DNA of 64,000 nt from Methanomassiliicoccus sp. (GTDB taxonomy: Archaea > Thermoplasmatota > Thermoplasmata > Methanomassiliicoccales > Methanomassiliicoccaceae). The stretch's first letter is position 1. Each line of letters starts with the position of its first letter. This document shows positions 8,303 through 13,584 of this stretch, one piece after another. The stretch is from positions 1-64,000 of the forward strand of contig JADFDJ010000006.1 of NCBI GenBank assembly GCA_018262895.1. The letters are read 5' to 3'. The notes under the pieces were generated by a model that saw only the letters and a list, made by a program, of their open reading frames with translations, was not told where the DNA came from and did no database searches. The position numbers and the translations under genes are program-made.

Positions 8303-9403
8303 ATGGCTAGTGAAATGACACCGACCCGTAGAGCACTCGCTGCCGTTCTAGGGGGACGAGTGGATTATGTTCCGCCCGCCAATCCCCTAGCGCAAACGAC
8401 AGTCGATCTCATGAAGTATGCGAACGCGACCTGGCCCAAGGCCCACTTCGACCCCAAGATGATGGCTGATCTGGCCGCTGCACCTTTCGAGGTCTGCGGT
8501 ATCGAGGCCGCGAGGCCTCAGTTCGATATCTCCCTGGAGGCGGAGGTACTGGGCTGCAAGCTGGACTGGAACAAGCCGGACCGCCCCCCTGTGACCGGAC
8601 CGGCGTACAAGGACCCCAAGGACATCACCTGGCCTGACAATCTGGAGGAGGCGGGAAGAATCCCCCACGTTCTCGGTGCCATAGACATATTGCGCAAGAG
8701 GTATGACGGTAATTTGCCTATTATCCCTGTGCTCACGGCCCCGTTCACCGTGGCCGGCCATATCGCAGGGGTTGAGAACCTGGTCATGATGACCGTGACC
8801 GACCCGGACAAGGCCCATGCGTTCATCTCAGCGGCCACGGACTTCTGCATCGAGTACGGAAGGCTACAGACCGCTTGGGGAGCACACATTCTGTTCCCTG
8901 CCGACCCCTCGGCATCTGGTGACCTGATCTCAGGGGAGACCTACAAGGAGTTCGTCCTCCCCTACCACAAGAGGATGGCCGCTGAGATCAGCTGCCCTCA
9001 GATCATGCACATCTGCGGCAACACCCGGGCCCTCCTTCCCTACATAAGGGAAAGCAACTTCGACTGCTTCTCTTTCGACAACGTTCCCGTCTGGTGTGTA
9101 CGCAAGGCGCTGGGGAACAGGATGTCCATCTTGGGAAGCCTAGACGTCATCGACCTGATGCCGAACGGGACCCCGGAGCAGGTATACGCCCGTACAGTGG
9201 AATGCATCAAGCAGGGCGTGGACGTCGTAGGTTCGTCGTGTGATGTGTCATATGGAACATCGCTTGAGAACCTCAAGGCATACGTGCGCGCATGCAAGGA
9301 GACGCCTATACCGGACTACGATAACATCGAGGACATGATCCGCGAGGTCGGAGCGGGCAAGGCAAGGCGCATGAAGGCGGAGAGCCTGGGAGGTGGTCAC
9401 TGA
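8303..9403 (+). CDS. MtaA/MtbA-like (UroD-fold) corrinoid methyltransferase
   Basis: 366 residues of the uroporphyrinogen-decarboxylase-fold methyltransferase family that includes MtaA, MtbA and CmuA. These enzymes move a methyl group between a corrinoid protein and coenzyme M. The zinc ligands are intact: H236-x-C238 in MHICGN and C313 in [16 protein letters not shown], nearly at the positions of M. barkeri MtaA. Compared with MtaA it has about 28 extra C-terminal residues. A strong binding site, AGGAGGAG, precedes the ATG. The stop overlaps the start of the corrinoid protein gene (TGATG). It may be a true coenzyme M methylase or act as the substrate-specific demethylase, as UroD-fold enzymes do in some bacterial systems. 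No MtaB, MtmB, MtbB or MttB gene accompanies it here. Confidence 0.8.
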
Positions 9404-10236
9404 TGGTAAGGCACATGGACATTCTGGCGGAGGAGATGCTGAAGATCAGGTCGAGGGACCCCGCGCGCTACAAGAGGCTCATCCAGGAAGGGATGCTGGC
9501 CGAGCTGGGTTTCGATGTTGGCATCAAGACCAAGGCCCAGGCCTCGGTCGATGAGGTCAAGGCGAAGTTCAGGCCCAAGGACCCATCCTATGCTGCCATC
9601 TCCGACTCGGTCATAGCTGGGAAGAGGGCGAGAACGAAGGAGCTTGTGGCCACTTCCCTGCAGCAGGGAAAGGACCCTGTGGACCTGGTTACCAACGCTC
9701 TAATGCCAGGCATCCAGACACAGTGTGAGCTATACGACCTGGGCAAGGCCTTCGTTCCCGAGATCCTGATGTCGAACGACGCCATGCAGGGCGGGATCGA
9801 GCTCTGCCAGGCCCAGCTGGGGGACATCCCTAAGAAGGGGAAGCTGGCGACCTTCGTGGCGGAGGGCGACCTCCATGACATCGGCAAGAACATCGTGGCC
9901 GCCATCCTCCGGGCCAACGGTTTCGATGTCATCGATCTCGGTAGGGACGTTCCTACCGCCAAGGTGATCGAGACGACCAAGGCGCAGGGGATCCAGATGG
10001 TCAGCGGGTCCACCCTCATGAGCACCACCAAGGCCGGCCTGAAGAGCACAGCGGAGACTCTGGAGGAGGAGGGGCTGAAAGTGCCCTTGGCCTGCGGGGG
10101 AGCAGCCGTGTCCAGGGCCTTCGTGGACACCTTCGTGAACTCCATCTACGGGAAGTCCCCGCTGGATGCTGTCAAGATAGCCACCGAGGTCTGTGAAGGC
10201 AAGGACTGGAAGGAGGTTCGCAAGGACCTGTACTGA
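9403..10236 (+). CDS. MtaC-like corrinoid protein
   Basis: 277 residues. The N-terminal helical domain (about 60-145, with DPVDLVTNALMPGIQ and ILMSNDAMQGGIE) is followed by a cobalamin-binding Rossmann domain. D156-x-H158-x-x-G161 in EGDLHDIGKNIV supplies the histidine that binds cobalt; GSTLM and ACGGAAVS complete the site. The wording from EGDLHDIGK through NGFDVIDLGRDVP and LACGGAAVS resembles methanol-type MtaC more than MtmC or MttC. Its N-terminus is about 20 residues longer than usual MtaC. It is translationally coupled to the upstream methyltransferase (TGATG), which is very probably its partner. Confidence 0.85.
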   Translation: MVRHMDILAEEMLKIRSRDPARYKRLIQEGMLAELGFDVGIKTKAQASVDEVKAKFRPKDPSYAAISDSVIAGKRARTKELVATSLQQGKDPVDLVTNALMPGIQTQCELYDLGKAFVPEILMSNDAMQGGIELCQAQLGDIPKKGKLATFVAEGDLHDIGKNIVAAILRANGFDVIDLGRDVPTAKVIETTKAQGIQMVSGSTLMSTTKAGLKSTAETLEEEGLKVPLACGGAAVSRAFVDTFVNSIYGKSPLDAVKIATEVCEGKDWKEVRKDLY

Positions 10237-10276
10237 CGACCCAAACCCCTTCCCAATTCTTTCTGAGGTATGCTCG

Positions 10277-11995
10277 ATGGAAGCTGTAGGCATAGATGTT
10301 GGGGGGACCTACACCGATGGCGTCCTTTTCGATCTTCGTTCAAAAAAGATCATTAGGAAGGCAAAGGTCCCCACTCGGCCAGAGGACCTGAGGAGCAGCA
10401 TCCTGCGGTGCTTTGCCGCCCTTGAGGTGCGCTCCCCGGCCTTGCTGTCCCGGTTCTGCCTGTCAACGACACTGGCCACCAACGCCGTGGTGGAAGACGC
10501 GAGGAGGGATGTGTGCGCCATATGCATCGGGATGCGCCCCCGGCATCCCGCGGAGTACGCGGCGGAGACGATCGTGGTCGATGGGAGGGTGGGGCCCACG
10601 GGTCTGGTAGAGGTCCCCCTCGACGAGGAGGCGCTCCGGAATGCCATTAAGAGGTCCGGGGAACGGTCCTTCGCCATCTCCTCGTTCTTCGCCACCAGGA
10701 ACCCCCAGAACGAGGTGCGGGCGGCAGAGATGGTACTGGAGGAGCATCCGAACGCCTCGGTCGTGAAAGGAAGCGACCTGGTGGGCACTCTGGGCATGGA
10801 GGAGAGGCTGTATATTGCCGTCAAGAACGCCGAGCTGATCCACATCATGTCAGGTCTGATCGAGGCCATCAGAGAGGGGACCAAGGTCCCGGGCTCGGTC
10901 ACCTATGTTCTTAAGGGCGACGGGACCTTGGTGTCCACCGAGGAGGCGGCCATGAGGCCCATATTCACGGTGCTCTCCGGACCTGCGGCCAGCGCATTGG
11001 GCGGGGCCTTCCTGGCCGGGGCCAAGGATGCGCTGGTGGTGGACATCGGAGGGACCACCACGGACATCGCCCTGGTGCAGGGGGGAATGCTGAAGCTCTC
11101 GGAGGACGGAGCGGTGGTAGGAGGCTCCCGCCTGAGGGTGGAGTCGGCAGAGATGACCACCCGGGCTCTCGGCGGCAACACTGAGATCTTCTGCGGGGAC
11201 GGCCGTCCCAAGCTGGGCCACAGGGCCGTGGTCCCTCTGTGCCTGGCGTCCGATCCCTACAGACATATGGGCGACCGCTCCTACCTGTATCCCCTGGCCG
11301 GCAAGAAGCATGGCATCACGCCCACAGACCTGTTCTGCGCCAGCGGGCGCAGTGACTTCGGCGACCGCAAGGTGGCGTCAGCAGCAATGGCCGCCCTGGC
11401 CGAGGAGTGCGAGCTCCCTCTTCCCACGCTCAACGAGGTCCTGGAGGATACCCTCCGCTCCCGGTTGCTCCGTACCATCGCCGAGACCCTGCTGAACCGG
11501 CAGCTGCCGGAGAGGGGGGATGGAGAGGCCGTGCTGCGCGGGAACGGGATGTTCAGGACGGTGCTGCGCATAGGTGTCCCGCTGGTAGGGATAGGCGCGC
11601 CTGTGGCGGCGTTCCTGGACCTGATCCGTGAACATGTCGATGGCCCCATCATCATACCTCAGGACCATGAGGTGGGGAACGCACTGGGCGCCATCTGCAC
11701 CGAGGTACACGGCCGCAAGGAGGTTATCGTCAGGAACGAGCCAATGTGGATCGATGGAAGGGAGGTACCGCACTACCACGTGGCCGTGGCCGGGGGGCTG
11801 AGGGTGTTCGCGGACCGCGACCAGGCCGTGGGGTATGCCCTGGAGCAAGCCACAAGGGCTTTGCGCGATTACATGGAAAGGAGCCGTGTCCAGCGCTACC
11901 AGGTGGTGTCCGAGGTGCGGGATATCACCTACCTGGAGATGGGGCAGAAGAGGCATGTGGAGACCATAGTGAGCGTATCCGCCGGAGGGATGTGA
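10277..11995 (+). CDS. Hydantoinase/oxoprolinase-like ASKHA protein
   Basis: 572 residues related to the hydantoinase A/N-methylhydantoinase family. The first ATP-site motif VGIDVGGTYTDGVLF lies at residues 3-17, LSTTLATNAVVE at about 68, the second phosphate motif VVDIGGTTTDIALVQ at about 255, and a C-terminal adenosine-type motif HVAVAGGLRVFAD near 503. A start at 10277, after TGAGGT, gives a clean N-terminus. It lies between a corrinoid protein gene and a RamA-like gene, and its TGA overlaps the next ATG. True hydantoinases need a B partner, which is missing. I infer an ATP-dependent role in reactivating or loading the corrinoid protein, not hydantoin hydrolysis. Confidence 0.7.
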   Translation: MEAVGIDVGGTYTDGVLFDLRSKKIIRKAKVPTRPEDLRSSILRCFAALEVRSPALLSRFCLSTTLATNAVVEDARRDVCAICIGMRPRHPAEYAAETIVVDGRVGPTGLVEVPLDEEALRNAIKRSGERSFAISSFFATRNPQNEVRAAEMVLEEHPNASVVKGSDLVGTLGMEERLYIAVKNAELIHIMSGLIEAIREGTKVPGSVTYVLKGDGTLVSTEEAAMRPIFTVLSGPAASALGGAFLAGAKDALVVDIGGTTTDIALVQGGMLKLSEDGAVVGGSRLRVESAEMTTRALGGNTEIFCGDGRPKLGHRAVVPLCLASDPYRHMGDRSYLYPLAGKKHGITPTDLFCASGRSDFGDRKVASAAMAALAEECELPLPTLNEVLEDTLRSRLLRTIAETLLNRQLPERGDGEAVLRGNGMFRTVLRIGVPLVGIGAPVAAFLDLIREHVDGPIIIPQDHEVGNALGAICTEVHGRKEVIVRNEPMWIDGREVPHYHVAVAGGLRVFADRDQAVGYALEQATRALRDYMERSRVQRYQVVSEVRDITYLEMGQKRHVETIVSVSAGGM

Positions 11996-13584
11996 TGCAG
12001 GCCATTTCATTGGACATCGGGACGAGCGGTATAAGGGGACAACTACTGGACGTTGAGAGGAAGAAGGTCCTTCGGACCGTGATCACCTCGCACAACCCGC
12101 TTCCCGGGGCCAATGTCATGGACCACCTGGACTTCGCTATCGAGAGGGGCCCGCACCTTGCGCACGAGGTGCTCCTGGGCGCTGTCCGCCAGGTGATCCG
12201 CTCACTAGCACCGGACCGCTGGGAGAGACTTACGGTCTGCGGTAACCCCATACAGCTCTCGCTCTTCGAGGGCATCGAGGTAAGGGACCTGGCCTATGCC
12301 GGCCGCAACTACCTTGAGTCCAGGAACATCGTTCCCCCGGACCGCAGCGGGCACGTGCTCCAGGGGGACGCCGTAGGGCTGGACCCCGAGGTAGAGGTCA
12401 TCGTTCCCCCGGCGATACGCCACGAGATCGGGGCCGATGCTCTGGCGATGATGATCAAGTCCGGGTTCCTCGATGACGACATGTGCATGGTCACCGACTA
12501 TGGGACCAACGCCGAGATGGCCATCAAGGTCGGCGATCGGGTGCTCACCGGTTCGGCAGCGGCCGGCCCGGCCATAGAGGGACAGCAGATCTCTGCGGGC
12601 ATGCTCGCATCTCCAGGAGCCATCAGCGACCTGGTGGTAATTCCTGAAGGATGGCAGGCGATGGTGCTGAACGAGGAGCTGGAGCCGTGCGCCGGTTCAA
12701 AGCTGAGCCTTCGCGGGAACACCCTCAAGCTGCAGGGCTGCAGGGCCCAGGGGATCACCGGGACAGGCGTCATCGCTGTTGTGTTCGCAGGTCTGGAATC
12801 CGAAAGGATCGTGCTCCCCCGCATCAGCGGGGGTGGCATCTCCCTGGACCGCAACATTAGGTTCACCACGGCGGACCTGCTGGAGGCGGGGAAGGCGATA
12901 GGGGCCATCCGGGCAGGGCACATGACGCTGTTGGAGGAGGCGGGGGTGGACCCGGGTGATCTGGGGACTATGTACATGGCCGGGGCCAGCGGTACCTATG
13001 TCGACGCCAGGAAGGCCCAGGCCGTGGGCATGGCGCCGGCCTCCGCCAAGAAGCTGGTGCAGATCGGGAACACCTCGCTGGAGCTGGCCAAGGACCTGGC
13101 CTTTGACCCGGAGATGCTGGACAGCCTGAACTCCATGACCAAGGAGCTGTTGGCGCACCACATCATGTTCGCCTCCTCCCTCACGTTCAGCAATATCTAC
13201 GTCCAGGAGCTGGCCTACTGGACGGAGGGCATGCCCCGGGAGGCCTACGAGCGCAACCTCTCAGAGCTGGGCATCAGGATGGCTACGCCCCGGGCGGGGG
13301 GTGTCATAGTGGAGAGGCGTAGGCTGACCGACATCTGGGATGTTGGTGAGAGCCTCACCATGATCGACCCCGGTATCTTCCTCAGCGGTGCCTGGTCGTG
13401 CGATCTCTGCATGCGGTGCGTCAAGGCCTGCCCGGAGAGGGCGCTGAGATACTCGGAAGCAACGTTCCTGGTGGATGCGGGGCGATGCCTGGGGACGGCC
13501 TGCCGCCACTGCGAGGAGGCGTGCCCTCAGAAGGTGTTCTCCTACTCTGGGCTCAGCCTCGAGAATGACTCAGAGGATCGATGA
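11995..13584 (+). CDS. RamA-like corrinoid reductive activase
   Basis: 529 residues. RamA in Methanosarcina uses ATP to reduce inactive Co(II) corrinoid to Co(I). The actin-like ATPase part opens with AISLDIGTSGIRGQLLDV and has MVTDYGTNAEMAI near residue 162 and GASGTYVDARKA near 330, as in the DUF4445/RamA/RACo family. The C-terminus carries two 4Fe-4S motifs, C-x2-C-x2-C-x3-CP in CDLCMRCVKACP and C-x4-C-x2-C-x3-CP in CLGTACRHCEEACP (about residues 465-512), as in RamA. The ATG at 11995 overlaps the preceding TGA. As last gene of the cluster it most probably services the MtaC-like protein. Confidence 0.85.
   Translation: MQAISLDIGTSGIRGQLLDVERKKVLRTVITSHNPLPGANVMDHLDFAIERGPHLAHEVLLGAVRQVIRSLAPDRWERLTVCGNPIQLSLFEGIEVRDLAYAGRNYLESRNIVPPDRSGHVLQGDAVGLDPEVEVIVPPAIRHEIGADALAMMIKSGFLDDDMCMVTDYGTNAEMAIKVGDRVLTGSAAAGPAIEGQQISAGMLASPGAISDLVVIPEGWQAMVLNEELEPCAGSKLSLRGNTLKLQGCRAQGITGTGVIAVVFAGLESERIVLPRISGGGISLDRNIRFTTADLLEAGKAIGAIRAGHMTLLEEAGVDPGDLGTMYMAGASGTYVDARKAQAVGMAPASAKKLVQIGNTSLELAKDLAFDPEMLDSLNSMTKELLAHHIMFASSLTFSNIYVQELAYWTEGMPREAYERNLSELGIRMATPRAGGVIVERRRLTDIWDVGESLTMIDPGIFLSGAWSCDLCMRCVKACPERALRYSEATFLVDAGRCLGTACRHCEEACPQKVFSYSGLSLENDSEDR

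Follow-up and report, generated by a model that had tools for sequence, protein, structure and literature searches.

A UroD/corrinoid operon of Methanomassiliicoccales that resembles MtsAB and carries an accessory hydantoinase-A-like gene

Our data suggest that a four-gene operon of a methanogen of the order Methanomassiliicoccales, on balance, encodes an MtsAB-type methyltransferase system, complete in itself, for methyl transfer from a donor to coenzyme M, a reading that we draw by analogy with the published pair. Members of this order contribute importantly to methane production in guts and wetlands, and their range of usable methyl donors is incompletely known. A deeply separate UroD/corrinoid system whose conservation spans two families of the order suggests a further donor, probably a methylated sulfur compound. 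Furthermore, the link between corrinoid modules and hydantoinase-like proteins that have no B partner makes it testable whether corrinoid methyltransferases have an ATP-driven helper besides RamA.

Results

The host genome (2.34 Mb) encodes mcr and Pyl-type methylamine genes, and its closest named relatives are MAGs of the same order. The operon lies in the window, by which we mean the whole stretch of 64,000 nucleotides that was analyzed, and all four of its genes were confirmed, closely packed on the plus strand, with HydS standing for the hydantoinase-A-like protein:

8303..9403, + strand: UroD-fold methyltransferase (MtaA/CmuA family, own clade), 366 aa, 40.0 kDa; PF01208, 233 bits
9008..9016, + strand: zinc ligands H236 and C238 (HIC), conserved without exception in 17 orthologs; they align with M. 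mazei MtaA
9239..9241, + strand: zinc ligand C313, invariant in 17 orthologs
9403..10236, + strand: corrinoid protein of MtaC/MtbC type, 277 aa, 29.9 kDa; PF02310, PF02607
9868..9885, + strand: corrinoid-binding DxHxxG motif (DLHDIG), intact
10277..11995, + strand: HydS, hydantoinase-A-like ASKHA protein, 572 aa; PF05378, PF01968
10289..10321, + strand: ASKHA phosphate-1 motif GIDVGGTYTDG of HydS, from alignment
11042..11065, + strand: ASKHA phosphate-2 motif DIGGTTTD of HydS, from alignment
11995..13584, + strand: RamA-like reductive activase, 529 aa; TIGR04270 674 bits against a cut-off of 500; PF14574
13399..13524, + strand: two C-terminal 4Fe-4S motifs of the RamA-like protein, CDLCMRCVKAC and CLGTACRHCEEAC, intact

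An earlier note on this DNA had described four tightly coupled genes with stop and start codons overlapping at two of the three junctions and none of MtaB, MtmB, MtbB or MttB among them, and this description holds: the UroD/corrinoid and HydS/RamA junctions each show a one-base overlap (TGATG), and no gene for any of the four methyltransferases lies inside the operon. At the remaining junction, 40 bases that contain an SD-like GAGGT separate the corrinoid gene from that of HydS. The listed open reading frame starts at 10193 (HydS) and 11746 (RamA-like) are mechanical, and the real starts are likely the ATG codons at 10277 and 11995. CTP synthase upstream and aIF2-beta downstream keep their positions in several relatives, which makes the operon a fixed chromosomal locus, and since the order of the four genes is itself kept in relatives it is not due to chance.

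The search for this gene order in other genomes, which the earlier note had proposed, found it kept in G017, G019, G014, G009 and G012 and, with defects, in three more. RamA is absent beside the operon in G018, HydS of G022 has lost about 200 internal residues along with the phosphate-1 aspartate, and HydS of G015 has a frameshift near its end; in all, two of nine close relatives carry a damaged HydS. In a second family, nine genomes have UroD (74-79%), then the corrinoid protein, then RamA, and lack HydS in the module; two of these genomes (G073 and G091) encode no hydantoinase-like protein anywhere. A second UroD-corrinoid pair in G015 adjoins neither RamA nor HydS, so that UroD plus corrinoid protein is the smallest recurring unit. 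It follows from gene content in the relatives that this pair is the core, that RamA is usual and that HydS is an accessory of one family. Where HydS is intact it is under purifying selection, weaker than that on UroD (dN/dS 0.16-0.28 against 0.015-0.06). In G036 (L174:5405-8548), genes for an MFS transporter, a corrinoid protein and a UroD-fold protein, arranged like mtpCAP, stand head to head with the UroD-corrinoid-RamA trio.

The UroD protein scores 468 bits with the MtaA/CmuA subfamily model TIGR01463 (cut-off 235), compared to 488 for MtaA, 508 for CmuA and 253-311 for the three other UroD paralogs of the host genome. It fails the equivalog models of both MtaA (263 bits against a cut-off of 400, where true MtaA reaches 505) and MtbA (210 against 600), and it is 31.9% identical to M. 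mazei MtaA. A tree of 54 sequences places the operon UroD proteins in a clade of 17 members with support of 100/100 and a stem of 1.13, outside which MtaA groups, weakly, with other UroD paralogs. The residues after C313 read D-V-S-[YN]-G-T in this clade and G-I-A-P in MtaA. An ordinary MtaA was rejected on the sub-cut-off equivalog score and the separate clade; of the earlier label "MtaA-like", membership of the MtaA/CmuA family stands, but the protein belongs to a clade of its own. The zinc ligands H236, C238 and C313, called intact from the one sequence, proved to be invariant across the 17 orthologs, and this H-C-C set is associated with S/Se methyltransferases (PMC10418091). One other UroD paralog of the host genome (L021:4174-5205) has glutamine in place of the zinc histidine (LQLCG), with no adjoining corrinoid gene seen.

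The operon corrinoid protein scores below every MtaC/MtbC equivalog cut-off and has a long N-terminal extension compared to the corrinoid proteins of 214-221 aa in the host genome. The RamA-like protein belongs with RamA by both the TIGR04270 subfamily model and its two C-terminal 4Fe-4S motifs.

Elsewhere in the host genome we found two MtaB and one each of MtmB, MttB and MtbB, the last located by gene context rather than family search, and each adjoins a corrinoid gene of its own. The eight corrinoid genes of the genome comprise two MtaC, MttC, MtbC, one of MtmC type, one near mcr with UroD and RamA, one with a long hydantoinase-like gene, and that of the operon. As every such substrate methyltransferase (MtxB) found has its own corrinoid neighbor, the operon corrinoid protein is left without an unpaired MtxB partner, and an orphan MtxB elsewhere was rejected as a candidate. 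The earlier note had advised looking for mtaB elsewhere, and had held that mtaB with its own mtaC, combined with a UroD protein firmly inside MtaA, would speak against its reading; mtaB was found twice, each time beside its own mtaC, but UroD lies outside MtaA, so that the objection holds only by half, and the suggestion of a self-contained UroD/corrinoid pair is supported. The simplest reading is that UroD itself would demethylate the substrate, as MtsA does.

The AlphaFold model of HydS is confident (pLDDT 87.2), and its best matches in the PDB are N-methylhydantoinase, acetone carboxylase and caprolactamase, with the corrinoid activator RACo a distant one. HydS thus has both the fold and the nucleotide motifs of HyuA. 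The hydantoinase B family (PF02538) is absent from the host genome, in agreement with the earlier observation that the protein lacks its B partner, and a hydantoinase of HyuAB type was rejected on this ground. Close relatives likewise provide no complete hydantoinase context, which the earlier note had named as a finding that would count against it.

Of the 147 genomes of the order, 130 encode hydantoinase-A-like proteins and a single one encodes hydantoinase B. We sampled 40 loci and found a corrinoid gene within 6 kb of the hydantoinase-A-like gene in 30, a count that leaves out stretches L183-L185, which are not hydantoinase loci. Corrinoid genes number from one to fifteen per genome and the chance of having one nearby was estimated at about 5%; even at 10% the binomial P for 30 of 40 is 3e-22, which serves as a guide only, as the loci share descent and were drawn for the most part from the head of the match list. 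The association between hydantoinase-A-like and corrinoid genes across the order is well supported. A tree resolves three hydantoinase-A-like subfamilies, each paired with one type of module: the HydS subfamily with UroD/corrinoid/RamA genes of the operon type, a second with the corrinoid, UroD and RamA module near mcr, and a third with a module of corrinoid protein, divergent UroD and CobW, or with mtt/mtb genes. In a quick tree with long branches, all three B-less subfamilies stand apart from HyuA of a true HyuAB pair. Within the order, hydantoinase B occurs in G008 alone (L193), as part of a HyuA-HyuB pair that is separate from the two B-less hydantoinase-like genes of that genome.

A module situated near a long hydantoinase-A-like gene recurs at L073, L075, L077, L078, L187, L192, L200 and L207-L210. 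It comprises a corrinoid protein, a strongly divergent UroD-fold protein and, in many cases, a CobW GTPase, and this UroD makes up a clade apart, with H-C-C ligands. Just upstream of mcr, the host genome (L026) has corrinoid, UroD and RamA genes only, and among some relatives, as at L074 (G004), a hydantoinase-like gene stands between the corrinoid and UroD genes. G022 (L070:1219-10426) has three clustered hydantoinase-A-like genes, of which two are direct neighbors, and the stretch read there contains no corrinoid gene. DUF1638 genes lie near corrinoid methyltransferase genes in the order (L027:17828-18472, L077:10466-11137), the mtm/mtt genes of the host included.

Discussion

Of the known systems, MtsAB is the one that the operon core most resembles in our reading: both consist of one UroD-fold enzyme and one 30-kDa corrinoid protein, with no MtxB. 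MtsA and MtsB have masses of 41 and 30 kDa (PMC7374477), compared to 40.0 and 29.9 kDa here, and the operon agrees with MtsAB in these sizes, in having no MtxB among its genes and in the H-C-C zinc site. The likeness is drawn from masses, zinc ligands and the two-gene core, and the linked RamA and HydS genes set the operon apart. The earlier phrase "undescribed system" was therefore too strong for the core, as a bifunctional UroD-fold enzyme with a corrinoid protein is the published MtsAB arrangement. MtpCAP of Methanosarcina acetivorans, which is needed for methylmercaptopropionate use, also joins a corrinoid protein and a UroD-fold enzyme without MtxB, but its described locus has an MFS transporter and neither RamA nor a hydantoinase-like gene. 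Two further observations were counted for the MtsAB reading, namely the trio of G036 beside its mtpCAP-like group and, indirectly, the TIGR01463 score of UroD, near those of MtaA and CmuA and above those of the other paralogs. ISO4-H5 has been reported to use methyl-3-methylthiopropionate, and published mtsAB assignments in the order may refer to another UroD/corrinoid pair.

In the mechanism that we propose, UroD with its H-C-C zinc site would take the methyl group from a small sulfur (or selenium) compound, probably one of sulfur, and place it on the 30-kDa corrinoid protein; the same enzyme would then pass it on to coenzyme M, on the way to methane. Accidentally oxidized Co(II) would be returned to Co(I) by the RamA-like protein at the expense of ATP, and HydS would be an accessory ASKHA ATPase that services the corrinoid protein in loading, repair or release.

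Two other explanations of the module were weighed. UroD could be a second-step (MT2) enzyme only, acting on a corrinoid protein that receives its methyl group from a substrate methyltransferase with a gene elsewhere in the genome; its family is named for MT2 enzymes, and its 31.9% identity to M. mazei MtaA fits such a role. However, all MtxB genes found adjoin their own corrinoid genes, three further UroD paralogs can act as MT2, and the UroD-corrinoid pair stays together in the genomes examined, so that we regard this explanation as unlikely. Somewhat less probable still is that the module serves biosynthesis rather than methanogenesis by recycling methylated selenium or sulfur, like the mlp clusters of bacteria and Methanococcus. 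Type 1 mlp clusters do combine a UroD-fold protein, a corrinoid protein and Ram/RACE in one cluster, and the matching parts extend to the H-C-C zinc site, yet these clusters have two or three Mlps (at least Mlp2 and Mlp3 together) and no described hydantoinase-like protein (PMC10418091), whereas the operon has a single UroD-fold gene. Moreover, the host is a methanogen with mcr, for which methyl-CoM is a natural sink, and no selenium genes were seen beside the module. Among known enzymes, MtaA and MtbA have the UroD family and the zinc ligands in common with the operon UroD, but they lie outside its clade, and each works together with an MtxB enzyme encoded separately from it.

With regard to HydS, gene neighborhood makes it most likely that the protein services the corrinoid protein, and it is dispensable. 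The earlier note had instead seen in it a likely second ATP-using factor in corrinoid activation. Translational coupling to RamA and purifying selection would suit a necessary factor of this kind, but the trio occurs without HydS in nine genomes of another family, two of them free of any hydantoinase-like protein, and the internal deletion in G022 and the frameshift in G015 disrupt HydS in two of nine relatives. A required second ATPase is for these reasons not supported; HydS was rejected as an essential factor, and a necessary part in reductive activation is highly improbable. What survives of the proposed module with two ASKHA proteins is a wider form, the order-wide linkage of B-less hydantoinase-A-like proteins to corrinoid modules, and not the requirement for HydS in the operon. 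There is also a small probability that HydS acts on the methylated substrate to prepare it, as an ATP-dependent hydantoinase or lactamase. HydS matches N-methylhydantoinase, acetone carboxylase and caprolactamase over its full length, and its nucleotide motifs are intact; against this, the B subunit is missing in 146 of the 147 genomes of the order, and relatives of HydS adjoin modules for quite different substrates (trimethylamine and dimethylamine genes among them), which argues against one fixed substrate. The HyuA proteins of these enzymes share the overall fold and nucleotide motifs with HydS but use a B-type partner, whereas HydS, shorter by about 100-150 residues, has no such partner.

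Returning to a role for HydS in servicing the corrinoid protein, we tentatively suggest, at somewhat less than even confidence, that B-less hydantoinase-A-like proteins may be general ATP-driven helpers of corrinoid modules in loading, exchange or repair, next to RamA, each subfamily serving one type of module. The association of ASKHA and corrinoid proteins has been noted in the literature before, without explanation. Bacterial glycine betaine clusters resemble the operon in that a hydantoinase-like gene, hydA, lies beside genes for a corrinoid protein, a methyltransferase and RACE, with no function stated for HydA, but there the substrate step belongs to an MttB-type enzyme (PMC9768040, the sole mention inside such clusters in the literature searched). 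In M. acetivorans, two predicted hydantoinases lie downstream of mtaCB2 (PMC11619418).

Outside the order, the HydS-like proteins of Bacillota (555-563 aa) found in a genome scan form a separate branch, and in three loci read closely their genes adjoin a histone-deacetylase-like gene; for both reasons they are not part of the system. A myxococcal MAG encodes MttB, a corrinoid protein, a hydantoinase-like protein and RACo consecutively, and a Zipacnadia (Armatimonadota) MAG encodes a 949-aa fusion of DUF1638 with a hydantoinase-A-like protein (L084:7125-9974).
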